Assembly (NCBI GenBank): GCA_918797485.1
Contig: CAKKNE010000001.1
Span: forward strand, 5,766,001-5,830,000
Direction: 5' to 3'
Length of the DNA stretch: 64,000 bases
Source: Pelagomonas calceolata
Lineage: Eukaryota > Sar > Pelagophyceae > Pelagomonadales > Pelagomonadaceae
This document shows, piece after piece, positions 1,306 through 61,964 of the stretch. The translations under genes were made by a program, and so were the position numbers. Under the pieces are notes generated by a model. That model was not told where the DNA came from. It saw only the letters and a list, made by a program, of their open reading frames with translations, and searched no databases. Every line of letters starts with the position of its first letter. The stretch's first letter is position 1.

Positions 1306-4300
1306 ATGAGCACGCTCGCAGACCGGATAGCAGCCCGCAAAGCCAGGAAGGCGCGGCGCGAAGCGGAGGAGGCTGCGGCGGCGTCTGGAAGCGCGAGACC
1401 GCCAGCACCGCGAGACCCGGTCGCACCACCGGTCGCACCACCACCGGCGCCGCCGCGCGAGCGCCGGGCCGCAGCGGTGCCGGAACGCCGCCCGAGCGCC
1501 ACAGCCGTGCCAACACGGCGGCCGAGCGCCACAGCCGTGCCGGAACGGAGACCGAGTGCTGCGGACCGGCGAGACGCGCGAAGCGCCCCGCTCCCCGAGC
1601 GCGTCGAGCGGCTCGCGCGCGCGACCGAGGGCCTCGACGTGTCCGACTCGCTGCGCGCGCGCATCGAGCGGAGGAGACGGTCGAGCGGGCGCGCGGAGGC
1701 ACCACGAGCCGCGGAGCCGCCGCAGCGGAGACCGTCGCCGCCGCGGAGGACGGCGTCACCGCAAAGGCGGCGGTCGCCGGAGCGGAAGCCGCCGCCGCGG
1801 CCAGCGGTACCGCCGTCCCCGCTGACGGACGAGGAGGACGACGTGCCGCAGTCGACGCGCGACCGCGTCGCCGCGCTCGCCGAGCGAGCCAAGGAGCGCG
1901 CCCGCGACGCCATCCGCGAAGCGAGAGGCCCGCGCGGCGACCTGACCTTGGCCGCGATCGATTCATTAACGAGACAATACGAAGCGAAGAAGGAGGAGGC
2001 CTCGCGAAAATGTGCGTTAGCATTGGACGCCAAGCGCCGCTCCGTCAGTAAAGGCGCCGACGCTTTAGATAAGACCGCGTCGCTATGTAATGACATGGAC
2101 TCCACGTTCGAATCCCTGACGGAGAACGCGGCAAGAGCGCGCATTGAGCTAGAACAGTTCCCCCGCGCCGAGTTGGAAGATGCGAGATTAGCCGCGCGGA
2201 ACCTCGCGGCTCTACTTACGCAGTTAGATGTGTATGCGCAAATCCCGGAGAGATGTGCTTCGTTGCGAAATGATCTGAGGCAGAACTTCCCCCAATCTCT
2301 CGTATCGACCTATAAGAAGGCCATGGAGTTGGAATTGTGGCGCGCGGCGCTACAGCGACGTGTGAGCATCGAGACGGACCTCGCTCGATCAAGAGAAGCG
2401 TCCGGTGACCATGGAAATAAATCGGACTACGGGTTGGAGGAGTTAGCTGCCTTGTCTAGAACTCTATCTACACGAGTGGCCGCGGTTGCTGAACTAGTCC
2501 ACGACGTGTTTGATGCCGCTCGAGAACCGTTGGACGGAGACAACGCGTTGGAGCATGCTGTCAATGACGAGCCGCACTATGTGGTCGCCGCAGCGCGCGT
2601 CGTCGAACTGCACGCTAGACTGAGACGAACAACTCTGATACCAACGGCACTGGAGGACGCGAAACGTTCCGGCGAGGCGCCCCAGGAAGCTTTGGAACGG
2701 CTGCGCCATTCCTTGACGGGAGTTCCTGCGCGATCAGATGCCTTGCAACGCCTCTTCAAAGGCGCCCGAACACGGTGCATCCGCGTCTACGCGGAGACGC
2801 AGATGCGACTGGTGGATGAGGGTTCTTCGAGGGTCGAGGCTTCTCTCGGCGCCGCGTCGGCATGCTTAGATGATCTCAAAAGTTCACATGATAAGCTAAA
2901 GCCGTGCGTTCCGCCCAGATGGCCTTTGGTAAGAATCTACCGAGCAGCGGTGGAAGCACACGTCACGTCGCAGCTCCAGCCGTTCTGGTCTCGCGACGAG
3001 CTGGAAGTGGCGGAGCTCATGAAGGTCTACGAGTGGCTCCAGGCCTACAACGCTTTGGTGGATAAAATAGACCCCATTTGTGAAGAGGACAATTTCTCTG
3101 ATGACGATGATGAACTACCACCATTGACCTTCAGGGGACCCTCGTCCCTATTCAACGAAGCGGCAGAGAAGCTCATGGCGCAATATCTCGCAAGAGTCGG
3201 AGACCAGGTGGAGGGCTGGTTCGGCAACATCCGGGCCAAGAAGGCGGCGCCGAGGCTCGACGAGCATGGGCGACCCGTGACGACGCGGCCGGAAGACATG
3301 TTCCAGATCGTCCAGTTGCAAGTCAGTATTGCGAGGGAGCACGCGTTGAAGAGTGCGGACGACGGCGGCCAGCACGTCGCTACCGTTGTTTTGCGGTGTC
3401 TGGAGGAGCTACGCGGCGACGCGCGAAGATCCGTGGAGCGGGCGTCATTATGTACGGACGCCGTGTCGACCTATGTTGCTGAAGCGTACAAGGCGCGGCC
3501 GTCCGAAGATCAGAAGGAGAGTTCCTCAGATGATGATTTACAAAAGCCGCGGAACGCGCGGTCGTCTTCGTTGGGTTCGTACGGCGGCGCTGTGCCTTCG
3601 CTGGAGGTCGAGGCGTTGTGTGCCGTGGCGAATGACGGCCTGCGAGTGCAGGAGCGGTGCGAGACGCTCATCGAAGGTCTCAAGTGTAGAACGAAGGAAG
3701 GCGCGGCTCCACTGGAAGGGCCCGCGTTTCAGAGCGTAGAAGCGGTCAAGGACCAGGTCGTGGGCGACTACGCCGAAGCAGCGGTGTCCTGTTGCAAAGC
3801 GGCGGCGTGCGCACCGTTATGTGATCTACGGGACGCCATCTTCGCGCCTGACTCTGAGCATGCGTTATTTGGGGACTTGTGGGAGGCCGACGAAAGTCGG
3901 GCCGACGCGATTGACGTGGGCACGGAGACCATCGATGATTACTTACAAGACTTTAGATGTTGGCTGCCGTCGTACTTATACGCGAAGGTGGTCCGGGCGG
4001 CGTTCGACGGGTTGGTGCAGGCCTACGTGGATCGATTTTTGAGGAGTTCGAGGGACCCGGCGTTCCGGGACGGGGACCAGGCGGCCATGTTCGTACCTGT
4101 GTGCACAAATCGTCGCGCCGCACCCGACTCACTGGTTGATTTCTGCACAGGTTAGTGCTCAGGGACCAGAACCGATTACTAAGCTACTTCCTGCCGAAGT
4201 TCACGCAGGACGCCGACCTCGCGTCGGCGAACCTGCGAACGCCGGAGAGCGTCATGGAACGGACGGCCGTCCTGCGCACGCTGGCCGACGCGCTTTCATC

Positions 4301-6085: not shown

Positions 6086-9000
6086 ATGGCCGCGACGCCC
6101 GACTTAGTGCCGGTCCTCGCGGAAAACCTGCGAAGTTTATATTTGGGCACCGACGATGCGGCGCGACGACGCGCGGACCACTTCCTCCAGAAGATCCAGC
6201 GGGGCCCGGAGTCCTGGGCATTAGCTGATGCTATTTTGGGCGGCCGGACGCCGTTCGCGCCGAACCCGCCTAATCTGGATGCGGACGCCGTCTCACCACA
6301 TGCTGTGACATTTGCGTCCATGACGCTGCACTGCAAGGTGTCTGGTGATTTACATGAACTGAGCGGCGACCAGGCGTCCGCACTCAGACAAGCCGCTCTG
6401 GCGCATCTCGACACGTGGTCGGCTCAAAACGTGCCGATTGCGGTCCCGAAGAAGCTTTGTTTGGCCGTTGCCGCTTTAGCCGTTTCGACGTCCTGGGAAG
6501 GGGCGTTGCCTCATGTCCAGAACTCCTTGCAAGGTAGTGACGCGGACGTCGACAAAGCGTGTCGGACAAGAGCGGTAGCTGTGGAACTCCTAGCCGCTCT
6601 ACCGGAGCAGTGCTTCTCGAAGCAGTTCAACGTGCCTCTGTCGCGGAGGGAGCACTTCAATAGGTATCTGAGAGATGCTTCAGCAGGCGTGCTAGACGTC
6701 CTCACGTCTCTGGTGGGGTGGGCGTCCTCCACAGCAAGGTCAACCTCCCCGTCTGGAGCGGACCGCCTCACGGTGGCGGCCTTCGAGTGTTTGAGCGCGT
6801 GGATCTCGTTCTGCGACATCCCGCCCGAGAAATTGGCTCAGTCACCTTTATTCGCCGGCGCGTTTGATGCCCTAGATCACCCTTCCCTCTTCGAGGTGGC
6901 TACGGATGTCGTCGTTGAAAGTTTGAGAAGGTTCGACTGTCGGGACCCGCGGTGTGCTCCCCTCATAGGGCTGGTGGCGCCGCGCATCATGGCCCCCGCC
7001 TGTGTGGAAATCAACCAGTGAGTTAGGTTTCGTGAGCCTCCACGCCATCGAGCCGAGGCAGGAATGGACGCAGCATCGCGTCGATGGCGTGGAATCGCCA
7101 CGCCATCGCGCAGACGCAGTTACGGGGACGACGTCGTTTCGATGGCGTGGGGCGTCCGAAACTTGATTTCCACACAGGCCCTCGCTCCCAGACTGGAAAG
7201 AGCAAAACAATCTGAGGACGACGACGAGGGTCTAGGTTTATGTAGGTTATTCTGCGAGATGGGCGAGGCCTACCTGCCCATGATCGCGTCGGAACGGGAC
7301 TGCAACCAGGCGTCTATTGTGGAAGTGCTCATGGCCTGCACGGAGTTCCCGTCGCGGAAAGTCAGCCAAGTACCCTTTCGGTTCTGGTACCACTTAGCAA
7401 AAGCCATCTCGAAGACGGAGGACGCGGCCCTGCAGCAGAAGCTTCGTGGGGTGATGTCTTCGACCTATGTCCGGTTGGCGCGGTTATGTGTCCGACTCTC
7501 AGCGCGAACGGAAAACGACTTGGATGGCGAGGACAAGGACGCCGATAGCGACGAGTACGAGAGCCATCGGCAGGACCTGTTCGAGGCGTTGGGCGACTGC
7601 TGCTGCGTCATCGGCAACCAGGCGGTGTTGGAAGCGATCGCGGAGGAGCTGAAGGTCGCTGCTGCACCAGAACATGCGACGAATGATGGCATTGAGTCAT
7701 GTTTGTTCGCGCTGCGGGGCGTGGCCGATTATGTGGGCCATTCTGATAACAACGTCATCGAGCCTGCTTTACAATTAACATGTACCTTACCGCAAGACTG
7801 GCGCCGGGCTCGACGCCAAGGCGCCGTGCTCATCGGCTCCTACGCGAAGTGGCTGCAGCGGCATCCAACGACAATCCAGCCCTGCGTCCAGTTTCTCCTC
7901 GAAGAGTTGAGTCAGGAGGTCCGCGCACCGACACGACGAAGGAGGGAGCCGTCGGCGTCGCGAGCAGCACGAGCGTTGACGGCTCTGTGCCATCGCTGCG
8001 CCGCGGAGCTCGCAGCAGCAAACTTCGTGCAGGTCCGGGACCAGATCGTCAATAATGTGCCTCTTAAGGACGAACTGTCTGTCCTGGAGGGTCTGGGCGC
8101 CGTCGTGGCGGCGTCGGCGACGTATGAGTCAGTAGTGCAGGGCACGCAGATGCTCGCGCGGCCCCCTGCTGAAAGTTTGGCGTTGCTAGCCCAATCGGAC
8201 AACGCCGAACCGCGTTCCGTAGCGCACGAATTGGATCGGCTGACGGCGGTCATGCGCTGCGCGTCGCCTTCCTCGCAATTGTTGAACGGGCGGCCGCATC
8301 CCGTGCTAGAAGTCTTCGCGAACCTGTGGCCGGTCTTCGAGGCCGTCTCCATCAAAATGAAAACGTCTCACTTGGTGATAGAGAAGTTGTGTCGCTGCTA
8401 CAAGCACGCCATGAGAAGTTGTAGAAAGCACTTCGAGCCGATGCTCGATCGCATGACGGCCCACCTCATCAAATCGCTGCAGGACGGCGTCCAGAATGCC
8501 GGTTCTCCCACTCTACAAGACGGTTCGAGGCACTCCGCCTCGGCTCCCTTGTCATCCTTCGTGTACTGCTGTAGTATATGTATTACGGAGTTCGGCGACG
8601 AGGCGAGGATGATTCCGAAGCTCTTCGAGATGGTGTCCTCCGTAAGTCAGGCGTGCTTCGCGTTATTACAATCTCCCCAACACTTCGCGGAGCATCCCGA
8701 TTTGGTGGAAGAGTATTTCTACCTCGCCAGTCGCTTCCTGGACTATTGTCCTGGTAGCTTATTGTCATCGCCGTTGTTGGGACACATCCTCCAGTCGGCG
8801 TCGACGGGGCTGCGGGTCGAACATCGCGAAGCGTTGCGCGGCGTCTTGCATTTTTGTGGCGAGTGCACGGCGGCGGCCGTGCTCGCGCTGAAGAAGTCGG
8901 GCGATCCCCTGCCGCCCGCGATGTCTTCAGATGAACCCCTACAAGCGAGGGACGCTCCTAGAAGTCAAGAAGATGTCGACCTGGCTCGTTCAGCGGCGCA

Positions 9001-9648: not shown

Positions 9649-11038
9649 ATGCTCCGCCGCCGCCGCGCGGCCAAAACCGCGCACGCCGTCCCACCGCATG
9701 CCCAATTCGAGAAGGACGATGCGAAGCGGATAAAAAAGAGCCTGCGCGACCTCGTGCACTCCGAGGCGCGCGGCATGTACGCCGTTCCCGCGCCGGCGAC
9801 GTCGATGGAGATCGCGTCCTTGCTCTGCGTGCCGCCCGAGCACGTCTGGGACCGCGCCGTCACGATCTTCATGGCCGTCAATCTGTACTGCAGTCTGCTG
9901 ATGACGACGGCCGTCGCGCTCGCGTTAAATCCGCTCAAATTGTCGAAGGAATCAAATTACTGGCTGGCCTTCGCCTACAACACGCTGCTCGCACGGACGC
10001 TGTGTCCTTGTTTTGGATGGCGTCAGCTCCACGCCATCGACGCGACGCGGTTCCGTTCGCGCAGGCTGCCCTCGCGGCGCTGTCGGTCATGTCGACGATG
10101 ATCACTCTTTTTTCTATATTAGCGTGCAGCGGCTCGACGCCCGAGACGATTTATGCGGCCGTCGCGCGCGCGGGCTTCTACGTCAAATTTATTTCCTTGC
10201 TCTGGTGGCAGACGCTGATCATGTTGGCGCTCGTGAGCGTCGCCGCGTGGCTCAAGTCCGGTTGGTTGGGAGGTGCTGTCGCTACCGGTGTTGTGTTCGT
10301 GGTTTTCCAGTTGCTGCAGCACGTCTTTTTCATCTGGGGCAACGACGCCTTCCCGCATATCGCGATGCCCTGGAACCCCATCGGCGCACCTTTATTAGAT
10401 AAGCCGCGAGATCGGCGAAGAGCGGAACACAGGGCGCGGACCATGGTCGCGAACGCCGAACCTTGGTTGGGCGATATTGCACGCCGGGTCGCGACGGAGG
10501 AGCCCAAGGCCGAGGACACGGACGACGAAGGTGAGAGTTGGGAGGACTCAAAAAAGCCGACGGACGACGGCGCGCTGGACCACATCGTCGCGTCCGCCCT
10601 GAAAGGCGCCGTGCCTTCTCGTAGAAGCGCCGTGCGCGACCTGCTTTTATCTAATGGCGTGACGAGCGACGTCCTGATCCACGCGTCGGGCTCCGCGGCG
10701 GGCGCGCAGCTCGTGCTCCACGCGCTCGACGAGCTCGCCGAGCGCCACACGCCGAACGGACTGTGCTTTCCTGCGTCCTTTTTTACGCCGTCGTCGCGTC
10801 GATGGCGTGGAGGTTTTACGCCGTCGCCGCGGCCGCCGCGTACCCTTGACATCGACGCAGGCACGTTGGCGAGCGGCTCGCGCTGGCGACCGAGGTCTCG
10901 CACATCGTGAGGCGCTACGCCGTCGACGCGACGACGGACGAGACGCCCGCCCAGCCGCCGGTGACGCCCCCGCCGCCTCCTGGTACGCCAACAACCCGTT
11001 CGAGAGCAACGAGTCCGAAAGGGGACCCAGGGGAATAA
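9649..11038 (+). CDS. Predicted four-pass membrane protein, unknown function
   Basis: Three exons (9649-9990, 10065-10762, 10861-11038) joined by frame continuity. The N-terminus is basic (LRRRRAAK). Four hydrophobic helices follow: AVTIFMAVNLYCSLL, LAALSVMSTMITLFSIL, LLWWQTLIMLALVSVAAWL and AVATGVVFVVFQLLQHVFF. The soluble tail is acidic and ends in Pro-rich sequence. The second helix is made by joining exons 1 and 2, which supports the intron model. The family is not recognised. An upstream in-frame start at 9586 exists, but it lies in sequence that looks like a 5' UTR. Confidence 0.6.
9991..10064 (+). mobile_element. Introner-like intron, apparent GC-AG
   Basis: 74 bp. No GT donor gives a matching phase, whereas GC at 9991 with AG at 10063-10064 is phase 0 and fuses two halves of a membrane helix. 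It contains CACGCCATCGACGCGACG. The downstream exon also starts GC. Confidence 0.6.
10763..10860 (+). mobile_element. Introner-like intron
   Basis: 98-bp GT-AG intron (GTGCTT...CGACGCAG). It holds GCGTCCTTTTTT soon after the donor, then GTCGCGTCGATGGCGTGG and ACGCCGTCGCCGCGG. Confidence 0.7.
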
Positions 11039-11068
11039 TACGCCCGAACACAGTTACACACACGAGGA

Positions 11069-12300: not shown

Positions 12301-13652
12301 ATGCGACGAACAGTAGTAAGAAGGCCGTGGTGGCCGCTCCTGCCACTCCTCACACTAGCCGCCGAGGACCCGGCGCCGTCGAAGCTCTCGTTCTTCGGGA
12401 GCTCCAAAGAAGCGGAGCCGGCGGCACCGTCGAAACTGAGCTTCTTCGGCAGCGCCTCGGCCGGCGACGCGCGGCGGCAAGAGGACGGCCAGGACAGCAA
12501 GAGGGCAGCCGCGGCGGCGGCGGACGCGCCCAAGCGCCCCTTCTTCGGGAGCTCGTCGGCGAAGCAAGCTAGGGAACAAGAAGAGCCCGTTTTGAGTGAC
12601 TTGCAGCCGGAAGCCGAGCAAGAGGACGAAGAAGTGCCAAGTATTTTTGATAGCGTGAACCACCCGCCGCCGGGCTTTCATAGGGACCCCGCCGGCTCGA
12701 CGGTGGCGGCGGGCCACCACCACACCTGTGCGTTAAGGCAGTCCTCGGCACCATTTGGGGGAATTGCGCACTGCTGGGGCGAGGACACGATGGGCGCGGT
12801 CTCCAGAGTTCCTGTCGAGCTGACCTTCATCCAGTTGTCGTCCGGGCATTTCCACTCCTGCGGCATTACGTTGGATGAAAAACTAGTGTGTTGGGGCGGT
12901 CCCAATCCAAAGCGCTTCGAGCCGCCCGGGTTGTATCAACAAGTGTCGTGCGGCGCGGTCCATACGTGTGGGTTGAGGAAAGATGGGCAGGTCAAGTGCT
13001 GGTTTGTTGTGCGGCGTCCTTTTTTTTGCCTTCCTACGCTATCGCCGCGACTGCTCGACGGCGTACGCCGTCGACGCGTCTCACAATCACGCCGCGCAGG
13101 GGCGAGGACCACGACACGGGCTGCACGAAGCCGCCGGCCGGAAAATTCGTGCAGGTTCAGGCGGGCAACGCCTTCTCCTGCGGCCTGCGGCCGTCGGGGC
13201 TGGTCGAGTGCTGGGGCAACGATCGGAAGGGCCAGTCCACGCCGCCGGACGACGTCCAGTTCCTACAGATCGCGACGTCGAACGTCGTCGACCACGCGTG
13301 CGGGCTGACTCTCGGCGCCCGCGACCTGAAGTGCTGGGGCGACAACCGGAAAGGACAAAGCCCAGAACACGTCGACGGGCCCTGGGAGCAGGTGGCCTGC
13401 GGCTCGAAGGCGACGTGCGCCATCGCCGACGGCGGCAGCCACGCGGAGTGCTTCGGCGCGGCCGCGCACGTGTACGACACGCGCGAGAAGACCGCGTTTC
13501 GCGGGCGGACGCTCGAGCAGGTGTCCATGGGCCACGGCCACCTCTGCGTTTTGGACGTCGAAGGCGAAGTGGTGTGTCATGGGCACCCGGTCGGCGACCC
13601 CTTGAAGCGGACGCATGCGCGGCACGTGCCGGATGGGTTTATTGCGGCGTAA
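12301..13652 (+). CDS. Secreted RCC1/BLIP-II-type beta-propeller protein
   Basis: Two exons (12301-13001, 13100-13652), 417 residues. The start at 12301 gives a signal peptide (PWWPLLPLLTLAAE). Three copies of a short PSKLSFFGS/KRPFFGS motif follow, then a Glu-rich linker. From about residue 135 there are repeated blades with C(A/G)LR..G...CWG, the pattern of RCC1-like propellers in extracellular proteins. The splice TG|G rebuilds a conserved tryptophan (VKCWGED), which supports the intron. Probable role: an extracellular binding protein with disulfide-linked blades. Substrate unknown. Confidence 0.75.
13002..13099 (+). mobile_element. Introner-like intron
   Basis: 98-bp GT-AG intron with GCGGCGTCCTTTTTTTT near the donor, ATCGCCGCGAC, CGACGGCGTACGCCGTCGA (palindromic) and the acceptor CGCGCAG. 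Confidence 0.75.
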
Positions 13653-14161: not shown

Positions 14162-15228
14162 TTACTCGGGCGGCCCGAACACGATCGGCGGCAGGCCCCG
14201 CGCCGACCGGTACAGCCGGATCACCGACCCGACCGCCGCCGTCGGGAGCAGGACGGCCGCCGTCAGCGCCTCCGAGAGCGCGCGGAGCCAGGGCCGCCGG
14301 CCGCCGTAGGTCAGCACGAAACACGCGCTCCGCAGCGGCGCGAGCAGGTGGCTCAGGTTGCGCCGATAGAGCGTGAGCGACACGACGCCGTGCGCGCCGG
14401 CGACGGCGCGGAGGAATCGCGACGGATTCGCGCGCGGCCGCTTTGATAAAGCTTCGGCGTACTCGACTAATCCGAGCTCGCGCGCGCCCTCCTCGATGAT
14501 GCCGAGGTACCTCGCGGACGGGACGCCGTCGCGTCTGAGGGCGGCCCAGGCCGAGACCTGTGTTGTTGTTTGTCTACGTCTATCCCACCCATACGCCATC
14601 GCCGCGACGTCTCCCCAACCAGCGCGCCACCGCCACGACTCGTCGAAGGCACCTTCTTCCACGCTGCGCGCAGACCTGGCACGTGATCGCGTCGACGTCG
14701 CGTCCACTCGCGTCGCGGACGGAGACCACGACCTCTTGGTAGGGCGTCTTTTTCATGGCGCCGCCTTCGCTCCGCCACAGCGCCTCGTACGCGTCGCGGC
14801 TCATCTCGTAGACGCAGCCCTGCACGGAACGAGTCTCATGAGAACGCCATCGACGCGACCACGTCAAATTGAAGCTAATTCCCACGCCGCGCCGGCACCG
14901 GACACTCCTGGCCGGGGCTCGGCTCGATGCCGGCCATCGCCGGCTCGAGAGGGGGGAACCCGCGCATGTTGAACGCTAATCGCTGGTCGTGGGCGACGGC
15001 CGGCCAGCGCCGCTCGTAGGCCAGCGCCGACGAGTTCTTGCCGCGCGAGCCCATCTTCGACTTCGCGAGGTTGGACCCGAACGCGAAGTAGCGGACGAGG
15101 CCGTTCGCGTCGACGACGCTCGCTGGCAGCGGGCGCAGGGTCGTTGTGGTGGTTGTTGTGGTTTGTGTGGTGATCGCGGCGGCGGCGTGGAGGAGTAACG
15201 CTGCGGCGCGCGTCGTCCGCATTGTCAT
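14162..15228 (-). CDS. Gamma-glutamylcyclotransferase-like protein
   Basis: Three exons on the minus strand (15228-14899, 14819-14676, 14557-14162; edges plus or minus 1). Exon 1 has a signal-like leader, a Thr run and then VRYFAFGSNLAKSKM, the nucleotide/substrate loop of the GGCT fold. Exon 2 (GCVYEMSRDAYEALW) and exon 3 (PSARYLGIIEEGARELGL) match the rest of the fold. These enzymes release 5-oxoproline from gamma-glutamyl compounds in glutathione turnover. The C-terminal 90 residues are extra, with hydrophobic stretches. The leader suggests an organelle or secretory location. Confidence 0.72.
14558..14675 (-). mobile_element. Introner-like intron (GGCT intron 2)
   Basis: About 118 bp, GTCTGC...AACACAG, with GTCGCGGCGATGGCGTATGG inside. 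The downstream exon begins GTCT, the same four bases as the donor. Confidence 0.7.
14820..14898 (-). mobile_element. Introner-like intron (GGCT intron 1)
   Basis: About 79 bp, GTGCCG...CGTGCAG, with GTCGCGTCGATGGCGTTC inside. Confidence 0.62.
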
Positions 15229-16056: not shown

Positions 16057-16829
16057 TCAAGCACAAGCCACCACCGCCCGAAACAGCATGTACCAGATCA
16101 GATTGTAGCACGGCACCGTCGACAGCAATAACCACGGCATGCCCTTCCGGAATACAATCGGATACAAACACCGAAAGAAGATGTAGCCCTTCCCGCAAAA
16201 AGCGGCCAATTCAACGTCCGCTAGCAATCCACACGCCCAGAGCGACACCAAGAAAGGCGGCGCCTGCTCCAATGTATTCAAAAACGTCCGATCGCCCAAC
16301 AACCGCAGCGTCCGCGTCCTGGGCGAACCATTATTCTTGGACCCATAGGCGCCGTACTTCAGCTGCACGAGCGTCGGCTTCTTGCCGTCGGCGTTCGGGG
16401 GCAGCGTCCGCCGCCTGCGTTGTGTCGACGGCGTGAGTCGCGTCGATGGCGTATGGGGTGGCGTAGCAGTCCCGATCTCGCGATGCCGAACTCGGCACGC
16501 CATCGCCGCGACGCTCGCCAAAGGGAGGAGCCTCATCAAAGAGCCCCGCCAAGGACGAGGCGCAGGAGCACGAGTCGACGGACAAGAAAAAGGCTAGGAC
16601 GCCGAGATGCGGACAAATACAACTTCGACCACGACTGGAAGAAGCAAAAGGAGTAGTACATCACGATATAAGCAGCAGTCACGCGCACGAGCGGCGCGAC
16701 GGCGGCGACCTGCGCCGGCGTGAGCACCGCCGCCGAGGCGGTTCCGGCGCCGAACCAGGTCGAGGTATTGATGGTGGGCACGCCCATGATGCGCGCCTCC
16801 TCGAGCGCTGCCCGGGCCCGATTCCACAT
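16057..16829 (-). CDS. MAPEG-family membrane protein
   Basis: Two exons (16829-16621, 16414-16057), about 188 residues. Exon 1 has a helix (VRVTAAYIVMYYSFCFF). Exon 2 has RTFLNTLEQAPPFLVSLWAC, the N..E..P conserved segment of MAPEG proteins (microsomal glutathione transferase/FLAP-like), and two further hydrophobic helices. MAPEG proteins act in the ER or plastid membrane on eicosanoid-like lipids or glutathione conjugates; the substrate here is unknown. The start MWNRARAAL is the first ATG in frame; longer readings begin with GTG. The upstream region has introner-like motifs, perhaps a 5'-UTR intron. Confidence 0.68.
16415..16620 (-). mobile_element. Introner-like intron in the MAPEG gene
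   Basis: 206-bp GT-AG intron (GTATTTG...CAACGCAG) with CTCGGCGTCCTAGCCTTTTT, GTCGCGGCGATGGCGTGCC and TACGCCATCGACGCGAC. TT|G rebuilds a Leu codon. Confidence 0.75.
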
Positions 16830-17411: not shown

Positions 17412-18393
17412 ATGGCACAACAAGAACCGCAACCAAAAAAAGTGAAGCTCGTCGACTTCTCCGCCGCGAGCGCTTTTTATGGAAGCCGAAAGGGCTACGT
17501 CTTCAAGACGGGCGACCAAGGTTTGGGCTATTACCTCGATAATGTGGATAAGGCGAAGGAGCGCGTGCTAGAAGGCCTCGAGGGCCCCGGGCTCTTCGCG
17601 CGGGCGCCATGTGTCGACGTCGAGGCGCCCGAGACCGTCAAAGCACCGGTACCAGCGCCGGCTGAAGAACCGCCGAAAAAGAAAAAACGCTTCGACCCCT
17701 TCGCGGATTTGCCGCCTCCCAAAAAGAAGGCCGCGCCCGCACCCAAACAACCAACCCCAGAACCGGAGGAAAAGGCCCCGGTCAAGGTGTTTACTTCCGG
17801 TTTATTCAAGCTCGAGCAGGTCCACTGCTTGCACATCGTGCGCAAGCACAAGGACGCGCGGAACCCGACGTCCTGGCGCCACCCGGGCCGGCGCATCGAC
17901 CGGACGCGCCAGGACGCGACTGATGAATTGGAGAAGATGCGGACGAAGCTTCTCGCCGGTTTGTGTTCTGTGTCCTTTGGTCTTCGAGCGTCGCGGCGAT
18001 GGCGTATCGCGTCGATGGCGTCGCGTCGATGGCGTATACGTGGGCTCGGCCGTAAGCTCGGACGCCCCGACGTGGGCTTGGACGCCATCTGCGAGAGACA
18101 CCACACGCCATCGCCGCGAGAGGCCCCATACGCCATCGCCGCGAGAGGAGTCACATAACGCCACCGCCGCGACGCACGCAGCGCCGACGCACCGGCGCCG
18201 CTCGCTCTTCCAGGAGCTCGCCAAGAAGTTCTCGGAGTGCGGCTCGGCGAAGAAGGGCGGCGACCTCGGCATGTTCCGGCGGGGCAAGATGAGCGCCGCC
18301 TTCGAGCTCGCGGCGTTCAACCTCGACGTGCACGAGCTGTCGAAGACCGTCGCGTCGTCGTCGGGCGTGCACCTGATCTACAGGGTAGCATAA
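17412..18393 (+). CDS. Parvulin (Pin1-type) peptidyl-prolyl isomerase
   Basis: Two exons (17412-17958, 18182-18393). The C-terminal domain starts VHCLHIVRKHKDARNPTSW and continues in exon 2 as ELAKKFSECGSAKKGGDLGMF and SGVHLIYRV, the parvulin fold with its catalytic Cys and His. K/R residues near the active site (RKHK) suggest preference for phospho-Ser/Thr-Pro. No WW domain is seen. Instead the N-terminus has YGSRKGYVFKTGDQGLGYY, then a Lys/Pro-rich linker with KKKKRFDPF, a possible nuclear signal. The short intron-split domain has normal length. Isomerises proline bonds in phosphoproteins, probably in the nucleus. Confidence 0.82.
17959..18181 (+). mobile_element. Introner-like intron, longest in the window
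   Basis: 223 bp, GTTTGTG...CACGCAG. It has three GTCGATGGCGT-type motifs at the left (near 17992-18035) and three inverted ACGCCATCGCCGCGA-type motifs at the right (18110-18170), perhaps nested or internally duplicated elements. Confidence 0.75.
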
Positions 18394-18536: not shown

Positions 18537-19424
18537 TTAGTCACGATACGTCGCCCCGCCGCCCTCCTTCTGCGGTGATAAATCGGGCATCTTCGACTTG
18601 TACGTCCGGTAGTCGGACGCCTCGTCCTTCTTCAGGTTCGTCTTGGACGAAGACACGCGCAGCGAGTCGACGACGGCCCGCGAGGTTTTCTCGCCGTTTT
18701 CTTTTTTCCATCGGCTGGCCTGTGGGTGGAACACGTCGCGTCGATGGCGTGGAGGTGGCGTCTTTCCCCACCAGCACGCCATCGCCGCGACCGTGCGAGT
18801 CGAAGGGAAGGACGCCGGGGCGCGGGCCGTCGTGCCGGCGACGAGGATGACGACGTCCTTCGAACCCGGCGGAGACACGGCTTTCACGAAGGCGCGGCGC
18901 TGGACCTCCGCGTTCCCCTTCAGCGCCGTGAACGAGTACTCCAATAAACGCCCACCATCAACGGAGCGGTCGCGCTCGTCCCGCAAGACGCGGACGTCCT
19001 GCGGCGCGCCGTACGCGCCGTAGCGTCCGCTGATGCCAAATATATTATCAGAGAACCATGAGGCTGAAGAACTCGTCCCCTGCGGCGGCGTCTTCGACAC
19101 GAGGAACGCGCCGTCGCCGCCCTCCTTACTTCTAACTTCCACATCATAATAGTTGCCCAGTTGCAGGAACCAGGGCGTTTCGAACGACGCCGTCGCGACG
19201 TAGCCGTCCGACGTCACGAGCTCAGCATTCAATACCTGCGCTTTGCCGACCCTGTCGACCCGCGGCTCGCTCACCAACACGCAGCCCGTGTCGGGCCGCG
19301 TCTTGCCGCTCATCGTCGTCGCCGATATCGCGAGCGCGGGTTGCTGCCGCAGCTCCGGGATGAATGGAGTGAGCAACGCGGCCGCGAGGCGCGCGGCAGC
19401 GCGACGCTGGAGGATTGGTCGCAT
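18537..19424 (-). CDS. PsbP-domain protein, probably plastid lumen
   Basis: Two exons (19424-18828, 18719-18537). The leader is Arg/Ala-rich with a hydrophobic core and PALAIS near residue 33, as in plastid lumen targeting. The body has TPWFLQLGNYYDVEVRS, then FTALKGNAEVQRRAFVKAV, KDVVILVAGTT and SRWKK, the order seen in PsbP-like proteins that support photosystem II or other thylakoid complexes. Joining at TT|ASRW restores the conserved end only if a GC donor is used. The start at 19424 is preferred to an upstream in-frame one within repetitive UTR. Confidence 0.72.
   Translation of the reverse strand: MRPILQRRAAARLAAALLTPFIPELRQQPALAISATTMSGKTRPDTGCVLVSEPRVDRVGKAQVLNAELVTSDGYVATASFETPWFLQLGNYYDVEVRSKEGGDGAFLVSKTPPQGTSSSASWFSDNIFGISGRYGAYGAPQDVRVLRDERDRSVDGGRLLEYSFTALKGNAEVQRRAFVKAVSPPGSKDVVILVAGTTARAPASFPSTRTVAAMACWWGKTPPPRHRRDVFHPQASRWKKENGEKTSRAVVDSLRVSSSKTNLKKDEASDYRTYKSKMPDLSPQKEGGGATYRD
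18720..18827 (-). mobile_element. Introner-like intron, apparent GC-AG and in frame
   Basis: 108 bp (a multiple of three, no stop in frame). The donor GCCCGC and downstream exon GCCAGC share GCC. It contains GCGTCCTTCCC, GTCGCGGCGATGGCGTGC and CACGCCATCGACGCGACG. Splicing is inferred from PsbP domain continuity. Confidence 0.62.
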
Positions 19425-45129: not shown

Positions 45130-45930
45130 TCAACTTACACCCAACAACTCCAACCGCCTTAGCTCACAAGTCTCCAGGTGCGGCAACGACCGGTGCGCGG
45201 ACACGTCCACGCCCGCGAACGCCGTCTGGAGGATCTGGAGGCAGTCGCCGTGCGACACGAGGAGGACCGCGTGGCCCTCGCGCGCGCCTTCGACGCGCTG
45301 GACCGCGCCCGCCGCGCGTTCCAAGACGGCGCAGGCCGCCTCGACGCCCCACGCCGTATGCGTCGCGTCGATGGCGTCTTGCTCCCAGACCGCTTCGTAC
45401 GCCGTGTTCGGCCCCAGCTCGAAGTCGCCGAAGTCCCGCTCGCGCAGCGCCGGCTCGGCCTCGACGTCAGCATGGACCGCCTTGGCGACGATCTTCGCAG
45501 TCTCGAACGTGCGCGAGAAGTCCGACGAGAGGATCGTAACGGGTCGCGTCCGCACGATCGCTTTGAACGCGTCGCCGGCGGCGCTAGCCTGCTCCCGCCC
45601 GGTCGCGTGGAGGCCTGCGCGGTAAGACGTCGTCTGCCCCTCTCGTGTCTGCTCGACGGCGTGGAGGCCGACGGTACGCCATCGACGCGACACCTGAAAG
45701 GCACCTTCCCACACCGAAAACGCACCGTACTCGAGCCGCGCGCCGCTATCGATGCGGCTGACGATGATACCGGCCTCGTTCGCCTTTGACCAGCCGTGCC
45801 TCAACGCGTAGTACTCGTTCCTGAGCGACTGCTGGCCCGGCGCCAGGAGCAGGGCTCGCGGCTGTGACAGTGAGGAGGCTGTACGCCGCGTGCTCCGCAG
45901 AAAGGGCTGGAGCAGTCTCATCCCTGGCAC
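45130..45930 (-). CDS. Histidine phosphatase (phosphoglycerate mutase-like)
   Basis: Two exons (45930-45726, 45614-45130), about 229 residues after splicing. Motifs: YALRHGWSKANEAGIIVS (catalytic RHG His), LSSDFSRTFETAKIV, LRERDFGDFEL and LVSHGDCLQIL (second His). Exon 1 begins with a possible mitochondrial or plastid leader (RLLQPFLRSTRRTASS). The enzyme transfers or removes phosphate from small molecules or proteins, with TIGAR/SixA-type or mutase activity possible; the substrate is not decided by sequence. Splicing G|GC restores EYGLHATGREQA, the normal family spacing. Confidence 0.8.
   Translation of the reverse strand: MPGMRLLQPFLRSTRRTASSLSQPRALLLAPGQQSLRNEYYALRHGWSKANEAGIIVSRIDSGARLEYGAFSVWEGAFQVSRRWRTVGLHAVEQTREGQTTSYRAGLHATGREQASAAGDAFKAIVRTRPVTILSSDFSRTFETAKIVAKAVHADVEAEPALRERDFGDFELGPNTAYEAVWEQDAIDATHTAWGVEAACAVLERAAGAVQRVEGAREGHAVLLVSHGDCLQILQTAFAGVDVSAHRSLPHLETCELRRLELLGVS
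45615..45725 (-). mobile_element. Introner-like intron, in-frame length
   Basis: 111-bp GT-AG intron (GTGCGTTTTCGG...ACCGCGCAG) with GTCGCGTCGATGGCGTACC. The frame stays open if it is retained. Confidence 0.74.
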
Positions 45931-46119: not shown

Positions 46120-47421
46120 ATGGGCGCCGGTCGCGCAGCCCTCGCATTGACGGCAGGCCTAGCCTGCAGTCTCCCAGTAGCTCTCTGGCTGCTCGCGCGA
46201 CGACGACCGAAGCGCCGCGACGCGATCGTCGACGCGTATAAGCAACACATTCAAGCGCTCGTCGCGCGGCTGCGGAACCTCATCGCCGCGGACGACGCCG
46301 CGCCGCCGCCGCAAACGCCGCCACAGACGCCGCCGCGGAGCAAGCCAGCACAGCGCGACCCGGAAGAGGCGTACTCCTTTGCCTATCGCCTCGATTTACA
46401 AGGAGACAACATCACATTAGCGGCCGAAGCATTGGCGTGGGTGCAGTGCCGGCGGGCCGTCGCCGACACCTGCGCCTCGCACAATCTGAAACAGATCACG
46501 TCCGAAACGATAGTCTACGATGGTGTCATCGAGGCGACCACCGCAGCGCCGTGCGTCGCCCGGTTCCTCCATGGCCTCGCGGCCGTGGACAACGTCGACA
46601 TACTTGTCAAAGCCCTGGCGGCGGCGCGGTCCCACGTCGACGCGCAGCGCCCGCGCCGTTCTTTGATAGCGACGCTTGCCAAAGGCGGGGAGGTCTTCGA
46701 CGTGGCCCTCGCGAAGGACGCGAAAGTGGCTTATGATGATGTGTCGATCTTTCTGTCCGCGAAAAAGAAAAAAATAGGATACGTGCTGTGTCGCGTCGAG
46801 AGCGGCCCCCGACTCGTACTAAGGGGTTTACATGTTGACGAGAAGCGCCGGGGCGAAGGTTTGGCCACATTGTTAGTGAGGCTGTGGCTGGCCGTCGCCG
46901 AGGAGCTCGGTTGTGGAATAACAACGCAGGCCATCGACAAGCCTGTCGTTGCCGTTATTTTGGAGGCCGCGGGCCTCGAGCCGCGGTCGTCGAAGTTTGA
47001 GGTATGATGCGGCGTCCGATCTCCACTCGCCATCGAGCAGATGTCGCGTCGATGGCGTGGAGGTTGACGCGAGTCGCGCCCGATCACAATCGCGTCGCAG
47101 GTCAAGGTCGCGCGCGACGCGCAGAATAGGACCGTGGTCTGGAGCCACAGCACGGACGCGCGGTCCCTCTTCAGCCGCCGCTTCGAGAGCTCGCAGGGCT
47201 TCCGCGTTAAAGATGAGGGCGAGATGTCGCCGAAGCGCAACGTGCGCCGCGCCCACGTGCGGACAACGTTTGCGCTGCCTCTCGATAGAGCGCCGGAGCC
47301 GCTTCAAGGCATATCCTGGCGCGCCGCGCGGTTGGTCGCCTTCGCGAACGGCGTGCCGGCGCTGCGGCGGCGTTTAAGGGCGGGCGAGGGAGTCGCTTCG
47401 CCACCACGTAGCATACGGTAA
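46120..47421 (+). CDS. GNAT-family acetyltransferase-like protein with N-terminal membrane anchor
   Basis: Two exons (46120-47001, 47101-47421), about 400 residues. The N-terminus has one hydrophobic segment (ALALTAGLACSLPVALWLL) followed by Arg, a type I anchor. GNAT signature at about residues 220-285: LVLRGLHVDEKRRGEGLATLL (acetyl-CoA P-loop region) and AIDKPVVAVILEAAGLEP. Exon 2 adds a 106-residue basic extension (VWSHSTDARSLFSRRF) of unknown role. Substrate unknown. Confidence 0.68.
47002..47100 (+). mobile_element. Introner-like intron in the GNAT gene
   Basis: 99-bp phase-0 GT-AG intron, GTATGATGCGGCGTCC...GCGTCGCAG, with GTCGCGTCGATGGCGTGG. Both donor and downstream exon start GT after AG/G. 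Confidence 0.78.
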
Positions 47422-49204: not shown

Positions 49205-50054
49205 ATGCCGTCGCTCACCAAAACGCTCGTCGTCCTCGCTGTTGCGGCCAATGGTTTCCTCGCTCCTGCCCCTCAGAGGCCAGCGACGGTGCTGCAAGCG
49301 GCCACGATCGCTGCCAAGGACGTCAGTGCGCTGCGGAAAGCCTCCGGTACCAACCGGTGCAAGAAATGCAAGAAAAACGGCGCCTTCAAACTGGTCGCGC
49401 GGGCCGCTCGGACGCGCGAGCTCTCCAGCCGTGCGTTGCCGCCGCGACGCCATCGCCGCGACACAGAAAAACACACAACACAAAAACGCAGGCGCCGGCA
49501 TGATGGACTGCAAGAAGGCCTTGGTCGAGGCCGACGGCGACGTCGAGAAGGCCTCGGAATGGCTGCGCGTCAAGGGCCTCGCGTCCGCCGCGAAGAAGGG
49601 CGAGCGCGCGACGAAGGAGGGCCTCATCGAGACCTACGTGCACACGGGCGGCAAGTTAGGTGTGATGGTCGAGGTGAACTGCGAGACGGACTTCGTGTCC
49701 AAGGGCGACAAGTTCAAGGAGCTCTGCAAAATGCTCGCCATGCAGATCGCGGCGTGCCCGGGCGTCGAGTACGTCAAGGCCGAGGACATCTCGGAAGAGG
49801 CGCGCGCCAAGGAGCGCGCGTTGGAGATGAAGAGCGAGGACCTCGAGGGCAAGCCCGAGGCCATCAAGGAGAAGATGGTCGAAGGGCGGGTCAACAAGAT
49901 GTTCAAGGAGAAGATTCTCTTGGATCAGAAGTACATCAAGGACGACTCCATGACGGTCGCGGACTTCGTCGCGAGCTACGTCGCCGTGCTCGGCGAGAAC
50001 ATCCAGGTCGCGCGGTTCGGCACGTTCCGCCTCGGCGAGACGCAGGACGCGTAG
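49205..50054 (+). CDS. Elongation factor Ts, plastid-targeted
   Basis: Two exons (49205-49346, 49492-50054), 234 residues. A signal peptide (LTKTLVVLAVAANG) is followed by GFLAPAP, like the heterokont plastid motif with Phe at the cleavage site. Splicing G|GC rebuilds the EF-Ts signature: ALRKASGAGMMDCKKALVEADG and VKGLASAAKK, then GGKLGVMVEVNCETDFVSK. EF-Ts reloads EF-Tu with GTP during plastid translation. The single core repeat gives a short, bacterial-type EF-Ts. Confidence 0.93.
49347..49491 (+). mobile_element. Introner-like intron in EF-Ts
   Basis: 145-bp GT-AG intron (GTACCAACC...AAAACGCAG) with CCGCGACGCCATCGCCGCGA. Borders are fixed by the conserved TGAGMMDCKKA-type sequence. Confidence 0.82.
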
Positions 50055-50220
50055 ACTCGACTAAAGATTGGGGAAAGAAGCCTTACGCGGGTGTCAAACC
50101 GGGAAGGGATGGGATGGGGATTCAGTCGGCGTCCGCGCACTCGTCCGTGCCGGCCCGGCCGCTGGGGATGGAGGCGTCCGTCTCGCGAGGTGCTAGTTCG
50201 CGAGCCGTTGCGGCCTCGGT

Positions 50221-50649
50221 TCTTGTTCTTGTCTTGTGGCGACCGTTGCCCGTGGGCGCCGGTGCGGCCTGGTCTTGTTCTTGTGGCGACCGTTGCCCGT
50301 ATAGTAGCGGGCGCCGGTGCGGCCTGGTTCTTGTGGCGACCGTTGCCCGTATAAAGCGGGCGCCGGTGCGGCCTGGTCTTAACATGCAATCCATATTGGT
50401 TATATTGGATTATGAAATAGGCAGTATGGCAGTGTTGTTCGTATGTTGCGAGCAGCAGACCACACTTCCTGGTCTTGTTCTTGTGGCGACCGTTGCCCGT
50501 ATAGAAGCGGGCGCCGGTGCGGCCTGGGTCTTGTTCTTGTGGCGACCGTTGCCCGTATAAAGCGGGCGCCGGTGCGGCCTGGTCTTGTTCTTGTCTTGTG
50601 GAGGCGACCGTTGCCCGCGGCCTTGTTCGCGGGCGCCGGTGCGGCCTCC
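50221..50649. repeat. Minisatellite, about six units of roughly 50-55 bp
   Basis: Units built from TGGCGACCGTTGCCCGTATA, then GCGGGCGCCGGTGCGGCCTG and GTCTTGTTCTTG. Three units at 50221-50375, an AT-rich interruption of about 95 bp, then three more at about 50471-50649. It lies between the convergent ends of EF-Ts and the PT-repeat gene. Units differ in length at the TAGTA/TAAA/TAGAA position. Confidence 0.85.
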
Positions 50650-54069: not shown

Positions 54070-55373
54070 ATGGGCAGCGCCGCCAGCCGCTGCCCGGACT
54101 GGGACGCCAAGCCCTGCGAGGCCATCAACGATGTTGATGGGGGAACGCCGTGCGACGTGCCGCGCGATGAGCTCGAGAAGGCGAAGGAGCGCTACGACGC
54201 GCTGAAGCGAGAGCACCGCAAGGACCAGGCGGCCCTCGCGACGGCGGGCGACGCGCTGCTCGAGGAGCTGGGCCTCGCCGTCGCCTTCCACGACGCCGGG
54301 TCGTGGACGCGCGTCGTCGCCCGCAAGAACGTCCCGGATCCAGTCAGCGAGACGCACGAGCCGCACGAGCACATGCACGAGCCGCACTCTCCGGGCACGT
54401 GGCTGCTGCGGGAGCGGCTCCGGAAGAAGCACCCCGAGGGCGAGGTTGGGTTGGTAGAGGACTTGGTCCGGGCGTCGAACAAGTCGCACGACAAGCGCGC
54501 GCCGCAGATCGTCGTGGCCTTTTGCGACGGCACGGAGACGGCGCACACGGCCTACCTCTGCGCCAAGAACTTGATCCGGCCGAACTCGAAGGACTGCCTC
54601 ACGGTCGCGACGATCGAGTCCGACTGCCACGGCCACGACGCCAAGCACCAGCCCGCGGCGATCCGCCACCGCTATGTGCGCTTCCAGTGTGTTATCCTTC
54701 GATCGCGGCGATGGCGTTCACTGGTCGATCATCAACACAGGAGACGGACCTCACGACGTTCCTCCCTAAAAAGAGGTGGCAGTTCATGCACGTGCCCAGG
54801 TCCGCCGTCGAGCCGTCCAAGGTCGTCGCGGCCTTTGCGAACGACCGCGCCAAGATGCACACGGCCGCGCGCGCGCACCCCGATCCGACGGCGCTCTGCA
54901 TCGGCTTCTCCGGCCGCTCCTCGAAGAAGAGCGACCCCACGGTCGTCGGGCAGGTCGCGGACATGTCGATGAGGAGCGTATTCTGCCCGATAGTCGTCTG
55001 CAAGCACGCGCCCGTCAACGCGACAAAACGCCACTTCGTCTACATCGCGGACGCGACGGACCGCTGCATCGACGGCATGAAGATCCTCGACGGCTTCCTC
55101 CAGAAGGATGATCGGCTGACCTTCCTGCACTCCCTGACGCACGGCTCCGAGGAGGGGCTGGTGCGGTGCTTCCGCGAGTACGAGAAGCGATCGAACTTCG
55201 AGTTCATCGCGGACGACGCGTCGACGCTCGACGTGCTGCGCGAGCGGGAAAGCCTCGTCGACGTCGACTACGTCTGCGTCGCGACGCGGCCCAAGAAGGA
55301 GCGCGGCTCCTTCGCGGACGCGCTCGTCCGCCACCACGCGGGCAACATCATCATCATCAAGAGCGTCGCCTAG
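54070..55373 (+). CDS. Universal-stress-protein-like domain protein, probably N-myristoylated
   Basis: Two exons (54070-54690, 54741-55373), 417 residues. The start MGSAASRC fits myristoylation of Gly2 with a nearby Cys for palmitoylation. A coiled coil (RDELEKAKERYDALKREHRK) precedes two alpha/beta domains: PQIVVAFCDGTETAHTAYLCAKN in the first half and RHFVYIADATDRCIDGMKIL ... VDYVCVATRPKKERGS ... VRHHAGNIIIIKS in the second, as in tandem UspA-like folds. Function unknown; likely a membrane-attached nucleotide or stress-related protein. Confidence 0.6.
54691..54740 (+). mobile_element. Introner-like intron, short
   Basis: 50-bp phase-0 GT-AG intron (GTTATCC...CAACACAG) with GATCGCGGCGATGGCG and CACTGGTCGATCATCAACAC, linking the two introner subtypes. 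Confidence 0.72.
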
Positions 55374-57446: not shown

Positions 57447-57453
57447 TATATTC

Positions 57454-59403: not shown

Positions 59404-61964
59404 TTAGAGCGCCACCGTCTCCGAAGCCGCCTCGACGCCGTTGTCGCCATCCGACCTTAAAGATGGCTGCACGTAGCGCGACAGGTCGTCCACCTCATCC
59501 AAGATGGCCTCCTCGTCGCCGCGCGACGCGAGCTCCATGGGCAGGTGGTGCGCGACCGACGACGACGTCGTGTAGAGCGTCTTCATCCGCACCTGATACA
59601 GGTACGTGACCGCGCTCAAAGCTAGAGTTAAATACCCCTGCATGTAGGCCTTTTTCGAGAAGAAGAGCCCGACCATCGTGAACTGCGTCAAGAAGACACT
59701 GAATAAAATTCGACGGTAGAACCGCGGCCACAACAACCCGCCACTCTCAAAGAGCGGCTCGTAGACAAAAAGCAGCTGGTGCCGGTAGACTACCGAACCA
59801 ATACTAAAGAACAAGAGTCCAGGCACCAGCACGACCGGCGACATGACGACATAAACCATCATGACGACGACGACCAACAGATCTTGCGCACCATATTTCC
59901 CAAAGGAAAACCAGCCCGGCCCGGCGATGTCTCGCAACCCAAGAAAGGCGTGCTTCCGGTCTTGTTGTGTAGCGGACGGGTAGATCAACCTTTTCAACGT
60001 CTGCTGCGCCGCCGCGACACCGCGACATAATTCTAAAGGAAGCCCCGCAAAGGCCTTCATAAACACGTAACAGCAAAAGAACGCGCAGACGCGCGGCAGC
60101 GACCCGCCTAGTAGTGAAAAGGTCGACGCCGGCTCCTGGAGGATCTCCTCGATCGAATTCACGACGCTGCCCGAGATCGTCGTCACCAGCAAGACATTAA
60201 TGATCTGAAAAGAATAATAACGAGACATCTGCAATAACGTGTTCTCGGTCCAGGAGTGGCAGCCCTGCCAGACTCCTAAACCCAGGAACAGGGGCGGCAA
60301 TAACAGCATGATGCCGACCAGGGCCATGGGCTGGATCGTCTTCACGAAGGCGTCCGCTATAAACGAGCTCTTCACGAGATTGTTTATCGATGAATAGCGG
60401 TCGCACAAAGCTGTTTCCGACAGAGCCATCGCGACCAACGTCACGGGCACGACGTAGAACACCAGCAACAATACCACTAAACAATCGGCAATAGCGCCGC
60501 GCGTCGCCCGCGTGTTCGTGTCGAATCCGATATTCCTCCAAATGACGTCGCGCGGCTCCGGCGCGGGCGTGGCCACTAAACCGCCCGGCGCCTCGGCGTG
60601 GAAGACCTGCGTCGCGACGGCCGCGCCGCTCAGCGTCCGGAAGCCGACGAAGCCGGCGCCGAAGGAGGGCCCCATCTTCCCCGGCGGCCGTCTTCCTGAA
60701 AGCAGGCCCGTCGTCTCCTCGCTCGCGCGGCCGCCGCGCAGCGCGGCCCAGGCCGCGGCCCAGGGCGCCTCGACGTCCTCCCACCTGCGATCGGCGCGAC
60801 CGTCGGGGTACTCTCGTCGCGTCGATGGCGTGCTGGCGGGGTAGACGTACGGCGTACGCCATCGCCGCGGGGAAAAGAAAAAAGGACGCCGCCCGCGCAC
60901 TCGTCGTCCGCCTCCCAGGCGCCGCTCGAGAGCCGCGCGACGTTAGGGTGTTCACCGTTCTTCTCGCCATTCACCGGCGCCGCCGCTTGACCAGAAGCGA
61001 CGAGCGGCTCCTGCGCCGCGGCGCGCTGGCGCTCTCTCACAAGCCGGTCGTCGCGCTCGGCGGCGCGCTCGTCGTGTAATCTTAAACGTGCCGCCGCGTC
61101 GAGGGACCGCGTCCAGAAGAGCGGGTCGTAGGCGTCCTCCAGCCGCGCGTGGGCCTTATCAACACAGGACAAACCCCGGCCCTTGTGCTGCGCCCTTCTA
61201 CGGCGCAGGCGCGCCGCGCGCACCCTATGGGCGTCGCGCGCCGCGATTAATGAATCGAGCGTCGCCGTCCGCCGCGCGCCGACGGCGCCCACGACCTTGC
61301 CCGGGTAGAGCTCGTCGAAGTAGGTGGCTAGTTGGCGAGAGCCCCGCAGCTTCGGCGGCAGGCGCCTCACGAACACAACGCGCGCGTCGGGCCTTTCTAA
61401 TAAGAAGCGGTGCCGCAATCGCGTGTACCAGCGGCACTCCCTTCCTAACCAATGGAAGGTTATTGATGTTAATATCACAATACCAAGCAGGTGCGCCCAG
61501 AGCCGCGGGTCCCTTTCGGGAATCACCGCTAGCGACAAGCGCGTGAACAAGTTCGGTAAAGAGGGCCCATCGTCATAAGACGCGCTCATGTTAACGATCA
61601 ACAAAATAACGGCGTAGGGCGCGAAGCTCCCGAAGATCTTCAGGGACAGCGCCTGGAAGCGCAGATACACAAGGACGTCGTAGCCGCCAATAGCTAAGAT
61701 CTGCTCCTCGTCCAGACGCATGAGCGGCGCGACCCATTGTAACGGGTAACTTGTGGGCAGCGGCGGCGGCGTCGCGTGGCCTAGATTGATTCTAGGAGAG
61801 TAGGTCCGCGGCGTCTTGCGCCGCACGCATTCATACACTGCTAGGCAGCAGAGGCCGAAGAACAGATTGGCCAATGCTACTACAATAACAGTGGTCATAT
61901 CCAGGTTCTCCGGCTGGGCGTAGGCCGACGGGTCCGCGAGCCAGCTGGGGATTAGGTCCCACAT
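59404..61964 (-). CDS. OSCA/CSC1-type mechanosensitive cation channel
   Basis: Two exons (61964-60901, 60784-59404), about 815 residues. Exon 1: short N-terminus, TM0 (TTVIVVALANLFFGLCCLAVY), YDVLVYLRFQALSLKIFGSF, then the cytosolic linker with VVFVRRLPPKLRGSRQLATYF. Exon 2: WEDVEAPW..., EPRDVIWRNIGF (the conserved WxN segment before the pore region) and about eight TMs including IGSVVYRHQLLFVYEP and ALVGIMLLLPPLFLGLG, as in the RSN1_7TM domain of OSCA/TMEM63/CSC1. Likely a stretch- or osmosensitive Ca2+-permeable channel in the plasma membrane or an organelle. Confidence 0.88.
60785..60900 (-). mobile_element. Introner-like intron in the OSCA gene
   Basis: 116-bp GT-AG intron (GTGCGCGGGCGGCGTCC...GATCGCAG) with CCGCGGCGATGGCGTACG and CACGCCATCGACGCGACG. 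Donor and downstream exon share GTG. The join GA|G restores DEWEDVEAPW. Confidence 0.82.

Follow-up and report, generated by a model that had tools for sequence, protein, structure and literature searches.

The introns in a 64-kb stretch of the genome of the pelagophyte Pelagomonas calceolata (positions 5766001-5830000 of contig 1, C1:5766001-5830000; hereafter the window, meaning this whole stretch) are very probably, and in overwhelming majority, introners: small non-autonomous DNA transposons that would have turned into introns on landing in exons. The genome analysed consists of 32,445,274 bases in 8 contigs, and for strain RCC100 an assembly of 32.4 Mb has been reported, with plastid and mitochondrion in addition to six nuclear contigs (PMC9481584). 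The best-defined element, here called family A, possesses inverted ends and 8-bp target duplications, occurs in hundreds of copies and is inserted in reading frames. These features support its assignment as a DNA-type introner, and with it the view of an earlier note on the window that its introns are of this kind. Most introns of the window belong to a second set, group B, which shares an inner hairpin motif with family A.

Structure and copy number of family A

The family A consensus is 203 bp long and its 15-bp ends (CTGTGTGGAAATCAA) are perfect inverted repeats. It was built from 24 copies, namely 20 fetched from across the genome and two full-length and two shorter ones from a 264-kb region that extends the window leftwards by 200 kb (C1:5566001-5830000). 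Exact 13-bp ends (TGTGTGGAAATCA, 150-180 bases, TGATTTCCACACA) were found at 206 places genome-wide and at none with the reversed-pattern control; the fetched copies are 20 of these places, picked from the listed ones near 200 bp. All 20 span CTGTGTGGAAATCA to TGATTTCCACACAG with a length of 202-204 bp, and their 8-bp target duplication agrees in 8 of 8 letters in 16 copies, 7 of 8 in two and 6 of 8 in two. Exact single ends (TGATTTCCACACAG) number 1642 in the genome. The paired places, the single ends and the different reading frames in which the fetched copies lie show many similar introner copies at unrelated sites. Element and duplication together measure 211 bp (203 + 8), in agreement with the published intron length peak of about 210 bp.

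The 24 copies diverge from the consensus by 4.0% on average (range 1.5-7.9%), a figure that sets a minimum for the family's age, since the copies were selected for intact ends. Because of this divergence and the perfect duplications in 16 of 20 fetched copies, a recent birth of family A is supported. The recent, massive intron birth proposed in the earlier note thus holds for family A genome-wide, but not for most introns of the window, which are degenerate members of group B.

Either end of family A, read outward, is TTGATTTCCACACAG, so that a 3' splice site is predicted to be offered in both orientations. The arms of an inner hairpin, CCACGCCATCGA and TCGATGGCGTGG, correspond to the first motif of the earlier note, and its second motif, CACTGGTTGATTTCCACACAG, is one end of the element. 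Two motif sets were distinguished there; in family A, a single element contains both the hairpin motif and CACTGGTTGATTT...CACAG. RNA of either orientation is predicted to fold with its 15-bp ends paired (-90.5 and -96.4 kcal/mol).

Donor choice and predicted splicing

The flanks of family A copies were joined after excision of the element together with one of the two duplicated 8-mers, with an open frame of 30 bases required on each side. In all 20 fetched copies the frame across the join is open and its coding score positive (lowest score 7.9). The gene strand was taken as the one whose joined flanks score best as coding sequence. On it, the duplication starts with GT in 12 copies, with GC in 8 and with any other dinucleotide in none, the background of GT and GC being 5.5% and 11.8%, respectively. 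Among the genic end pairs of the 264-kb region, 14 of 15 begin with GT or GC (GY; 9 GT, 5 GC). GY follows 1051 of the 1642 exact ends genome-wide (64%), with GT after 681; among 20 listed end pairs in C1:1-3590245, ten of which also belong to the fetched set, it follows at least one end in all 20 and both ends in four. If every downstream end is assumed to be followed by GY and upstream ends to be followed by it at background, arithmetic on these counts gives approximately 57% of the exact ends as downstream ends, and donors that are approximately 69% GT and 31% GC. Under the same assumption, GT would be kept about 4.8-fold better than GC after background correction. A predicted share of about one third GC donors is high, yet precedented, as GC 5' splice sites are on record at 0 to 50% per introner family (PMC9860276).

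The GY start could in principle stem from insertion rather than from splicing, should the transposase prefer GY targets. It is general knowledge that target preferences are common among transposases, but the bias seen here exists on the gene strand only: all 20 copies carry it there, compared with 3 of 20 for the reverse-strand start of the duplication (last two letters AC or GC), which is near the background of 17%. The element is symmetric and is found in both orientations (the same as the gene in 12 copies, opposite in 8), and could not sense the gene strand unless insertion were coupled to transcription. A target preference is consequently a highly improbable source of the pattern. That the bias tracks the gene and not the element fits the survival only of insertions whose duplication supplies the donor.

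It could also be that family A carries both splice sites, with a donor inside the inverted end (CTGT|GTGG) that would add 12 nt, eight from the duplication and four from the element. The layout of 8 + 4 is identical to that described for an Aureococcus species, the alternative product is always in frame, and the inner donor is often picked by our gene finder. The end pair at -69149, the one of the 15 genic pairs that has neither a GY start nor a matching duplication, suits this arrangement as well. An inner donor predicts an unconstrained duplication start, yet GY was present in 20 of 20 fetched and 14 of 15 local copies. When the seamless form was compared with the form bearing four extra residues, Pfam bit scores were higher for the former in five of six testable cases: XRN_N (53.3 against 51.5), the GC-start PP2C (67.7 against 58.0), Abhydrolase_1 (59.2 against 57.8), DHHC (59.5 against 53.8) and APH (25.9 against 25.1). 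The extra residues thus cost 9.7 bits in PP2C and 5.7 bits in DHHC. Seams were also gap-free against solved homologues in transportin-3 (GC donor), elongation factor EF-Ts and PP2C (GC donor; solved phosphatases). Carriage of both splice sites is very improbable.

Some observations weigh against a co-opted donor. Besides the pair at -69149, Exo_endo_phos2 scored 0.6 bits lower in the seamless form (71.3 against 71.9) and two secondary hydrolase models favoured the longer form. Nor do the 15 local pairs show better preservation of the downstream end, where 211 of 225 letters are kept as against 208 at the upstream end. Since the duplications start with GY and the seams are gap-free, it is nevertheless strongly indicated that family A carries one splice site and co-opts the other, with message length predicted to be unchanged.

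Proposed mechanism of intron formation

Family A inserts in both orientations and duplicates 8 bp of its target. Each of its ends would constitute a complete outward-read 3' splice module, with TTGAT as a possible branch point, a short pyrimidine tract and CACAG, and the acceptor would be provided by whichever end lies downstream, regardless of the strand transcribed. The upstream copy of the duplication would serve as donor when it starts with GT or GC, so that the original reading frame is exactly restored; insertions whose duplication lacks such a start on the gene strand would be lost. In the RNA, the inverted ends may pair as a panhandle, which would leave 8 nt between donor and acceptor. 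Group B, which shares the inner hairpin motif, would most likely represent earlier insertions of related elements, with duplications that have since decayed.

A broader proposition is about evenly balanced between being right and wrong: that introners of several different ages have taken the place of nearly all older introns, through a transposon with two mirror-image 3' splice modules that can give rise to a seamless intron wherever a GT or GC is available, whichever way round it inserts.

Share of introners in the region

A gene finder that received no motif input, and relied on coding periodicity, GT or GC donors and AG acceptors, was run on the 264-kb region. The motif-blind test set comprised introns with a support of at least 10 nats and a length of at most 300 bp. 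By a fixed rule, 38 of these 42 introns were introner-like (10 of 11 within the window), compared with a mean of 4.5 and a maximum of 10 for matched exon segments. Six predictions above 300 bp with the same support, three of them with a core (the 9-mer treated below), were omitted as probable gene joins. Within the limits of a gene finder working from sequence, introners therefore account for almost all introns of the region, as had been proposed; the stronger statement that every placeable intron is an introner has to be reduced to nearly all, not all, of the placed introns.

Two of the motifs are strongly enriched in the window. CGTCGATGGCGT (at most one mismatch) occurs 34 times where 0.79 are expected and ACGCCATCGNCGCGA (at most two mismatches) 52 times where 2.44 are expected, so that the related motifs reported earlier are real and above chance; CACTGGTTGATTT gives only three matches where 0.60 are expected. 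Eighteen introns were placed in the window. They are placements of the present analysis, those of the earlier note, also 18, having come without a list. An exact 9-mer core is found in 14 of the 18, with equal-length exon segments giving a mean of 0.08 and a maximum of 2 (500 draws, as for the following two counts). With up to one mismatch it is found in 16 (exon mean 1.8, maximum 6), and the core or a family A end in 17 (exon mean 1.9, maximum 7). When each intron is aligned locally to the other introns, 14 of the 18 score above every one of the 80 controls; with the family A consensus as a further target the number rises to 16, the two that fail being 14820-14898 and 41231-41303. As a group, the introns also fold more stably than shuffled versions: the median z is -1.5 and 8 of 18 lie below -2, compared with a median of 0.05 and 3 of 54 for exon controls.

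The notion that all of this reflects chance GC-rich words or gene-finder artefacts draws on the high G+C content of the genome and on some long predicted introns that are probably artefacts. It is contradicted by the motif, exon and alignment controls, and by the 3250 exact copies of CGTCGATGGCGT genome-wide as opposed to five of the reversed pattern, and deserves next to no credence; shared intron sequence beyond chance words, on which the earlier claim depended, is borne out by the alignments.

Group B introns

Most introns of the window begin near GGCGTCC or a variant, end in CGCAG and hold one or more cores. In the 264-kb region, exact core 9-mers number 64 in predicted introns (3.35/kb), 15 in exons (0.07/kb) and 15 in intergenic sequence (0.36/kb). 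Group B is interpreted, with lower confidence than family A, as older degenerate introners related through the inner hairpin.

This interpretation has to be weighed against the idea that group B consists of ordinary spliceosomal introns with a common conserved splicing or structural (hairpin) motif. A search for target duplications in 53 short introns recovered duplications of at least 7 of 8 letters in 14, where 2.4 are expected, but these are mainly family A; the best values of group B lie within the null. Only 7 of the 18 window introns, A and B taken together, beat all controls against the family A consensus, and the word GGCGTCCTTTTTT occurs just 19 times genome-wide (control 2). The core, on the other hand, is also present inside the family A element and in intergenic sequence, and its number, spacing and order differ between introns. 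Ordinary introns with a shared motif are accordingly an unlikely account of group B, and descent from introners is preferred. The absence of duplications above the null counts against this descent, as does the fact that a transposon origin for group B would rest on the shared core. The terminal inverted repeats and target duplications for which the earlier note had proposed a search were found in family A (15 bp and 8 bp); in group B the duplications did not rise above the null, and terminal repeats were not established, the ends having only a short, variable resemblance. As most window introns are group B without duplication above the null, the window itself would mainly show older insertions.

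Three of the 19 GGCGTCCTTTTTT words fall within C1:5566001-5830000. This region accounts for 0.8% of the genome, which hints at a possible clustering of group B there.

Candidate mobilising enzymes

One hAT transposase gene of 721 codons was identified, in a complete-looking element (L050:2550-6200; C4:4499549-4503199) with 20-bp inverted ends (CAGGGCAGCAGAAGGGCAAG) and a perfect 8-bp duplication (TTGCTCGC). The gene itself appears to be interrupted by an introner-like insert near L050:5085-5115. The 8-bp duplication of family A is of the kind by which hAT-derived miniature elements are recognized. The resident hAT was considered as source of family A and rejected, its ends (CAGGGCAGCAGAAGGGCAAG) being unlike CTGTGTGGAAATCAA; other hAT copies may have been missed. 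Profiles of KDZ, P-like, Merlin and MULE transposases (PF18758, PF21787, PF12762 and PF10551, respectively) gave no match in the genome, the first two being without a match in any control genome too. No transposase was linked to family A among the five families searched, which speaks against a transposon origin. Exact TGTGTGGAAATCAACCAGTG was not found in viral contigs, a set from which entries close to this genome may have been excluded.

Introns placed in the window

Gene-finder borders were kept for 11 of the 18 introns, with weak support in three (those starting at 18715, 14820 and 54691, with 0.0, 3.1 and 7.9 nats), while seven (4089, 6992, 14558, 17959, 45615, 49347 and 60785) were located or given new borders by hand, with reading frame, duplications and homology as guides. 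The clearest introner is the predicted family A intron at 6992..7177 (+ strand, 186 bp, GC donor) in a gene resembling transportin-3/importin-13 (Pfam TNPO3/IPO13): its duplication agrees in 7 of 8 letters (GCCCCCGC/GCCCTCGC), both ends in 15 of 15, and its seam is gap-free against human transportin-3. A second predicted family A intron, at 4089..4150 (+ strand, 62 bp, GT donor), was hand-set; its duplication (GTTCGTAC/GTTAGTGC) agrees in 6 of 8 letters, the frame is open over the seam, and it aligns to the family A consensus with a score of 28 (control maximum 17). The gene-finder borders 4101-4162 (support 28.5) and 6952-7191 were rejected in favour of these duplication-based ones. The intron at 41231..41303 (- strand, 73 bp, GC donor, support 40.1) is probably a degenerate family A member with CACTGGTTGCTTG, which fails the formal introner tests, and a short one resembling family A was placed at 54691..54740 (+ strand, 50 bp) with a core and uncertain borders.

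Several putative group B introns interrupt recognizable genes. These comprise 13002..13099 (+ strand, 98 bp, support 18.1) in an RCC1-repeat gene (RCC1_2); 20220..20395 (+ strand, 176 bp, support 32.2) in a CDC37-like gene with CDC37_N, M and C; and 17959..18181 (+ strand, 223 bp) in a parvulin (PIN1-like) gene, with a hand-set donor (support 40.4 with donor 17980), an open seam and a parvulin match that spans the seam with a 3-residue gap beside it. Another, 45615..45725 (- strand, 111 bp), was placed by hand in a phosphoglycerate-mutase-like gene and has a core and an open seam; being a multiple of three without stop codons, it is read through as exon by the gene finder. The intron at 60785..60900 (- strand, 116 bp) in an RSN1/TMEM63-like gene (RSN1_7TM) was hand-set, with a duplication of 6 of 8 letters and an open seam (support 21.3 with borders 60811-60887). 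An intron with a core, 49347..49491 (+ strand, 145 bp), was placed by hand in the EF-Ts gene, where its seam is gap-free against Thermus EF-Ts (1aip).

The remaining group B introns on the + strand are 9991..10064 (74 bp, support 10.1, supported by core and alignment, with uncertain borders), 10763..10860 (98 bp, support 18.5, with a core and a duplication of only 4 of 8 letters) and 47002..47100 (99 bp, support 9.1, scoring 39 against the family A consensus, control maximum 24). Those on the - strand are 14558..14675 (118 bp, hand-set from a duplication of 6 of 8 letters and an open seam, where the gene finder had 14611-14662), the weak 14820..14898 (79 bp, with a core), 16415..16614 (200 bp, support 22.3) and 27164..27268 (105 bp, support 15.4, with a core only at one mismatch), together with a candidate at 18715..18813 (99 bp, a multiple of three, with core and alignment).

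Seven predictions in the window without an introner mark were left out (starts -13, 15123, 30665, 33707, 34895, 44549 and 50269), six of which exceed 300 bp and are judged to be probable joins of neighbouring genes or repeats. One of them is a doubtful 816-bp intron (50269-51084, support 19.2) beside a threonine- and proline-rich repeat protein, which adjoins repeated words such as ACGGTCGCCACAAG and GCACCGGCGCCC at approximately 50200-51100. Copies of the core outside the placed introns, in intergenic or untranslated sequence, were observed at 14132, 16884, 16915, 38037, 42835, 47456 and 54020.

Significance and comparison with known introners

If the predicted splicing is true, the family forms a natural experiment with hundreds of almost identical insertions, distinguished from one another only by 8-bp target and orientation and filtered by their ability to splice. 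The choice between GT and GC donors, independence of orientation and the strength of selection against unspliced insertions would then be measurable in one genome. The degree to which GT is retained better than GC would show directly, from genome sequence, how readily the spliceosome accepts each of the two donors, and the view that introns in this lineage stem mainly from transposons would gain support.

The introners of Aureococcus anophagefferens and Micromonas pusilla reportedly bring one splice site with them and co-opt the other from the duplicated target (Huff, 2016). Like the elements of Aureococcus and Micromonas as summarized in PMC9860276, family A is a short non-autonomous DNA element with inverted ends and target duplications that would become an intron. 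It differs from them in carrying the 3' module at both ends, so that both orientations are predicted to work, and in its GC starts (8 of 20). For family 4 of Aureococcus sp. TARA_AOS_82_MAG_00129, carriage of both splice sites with 12 nt added has been described (Gozashti 2022, PMC9860276). Family A resembles that family in having an 8-bp duplication and four element bases before a possible GT, but the constraint to GY favours seamless use of the duplication. Family A and the resident hAT element share an 8-bp duplication, while their ends differ. In P. calceolata, 0.45 introns per gene and a length peak at about 210 bp have been reported and likened to the Introner Elements of A. anophagefferens (PMC9481584), and the presence of introner-length introns in this species is therefore not new. 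The portion of that account considered here contains only the length peak and this comparison, and the anatomy was worked out in the present analysis. Relative to that portion, this analysis adds for P. calceolata the anatomy of the element, its ends that are predicted to function in two directions, a GY filter confined to one side and the proportion of introners among introns called without motif input.

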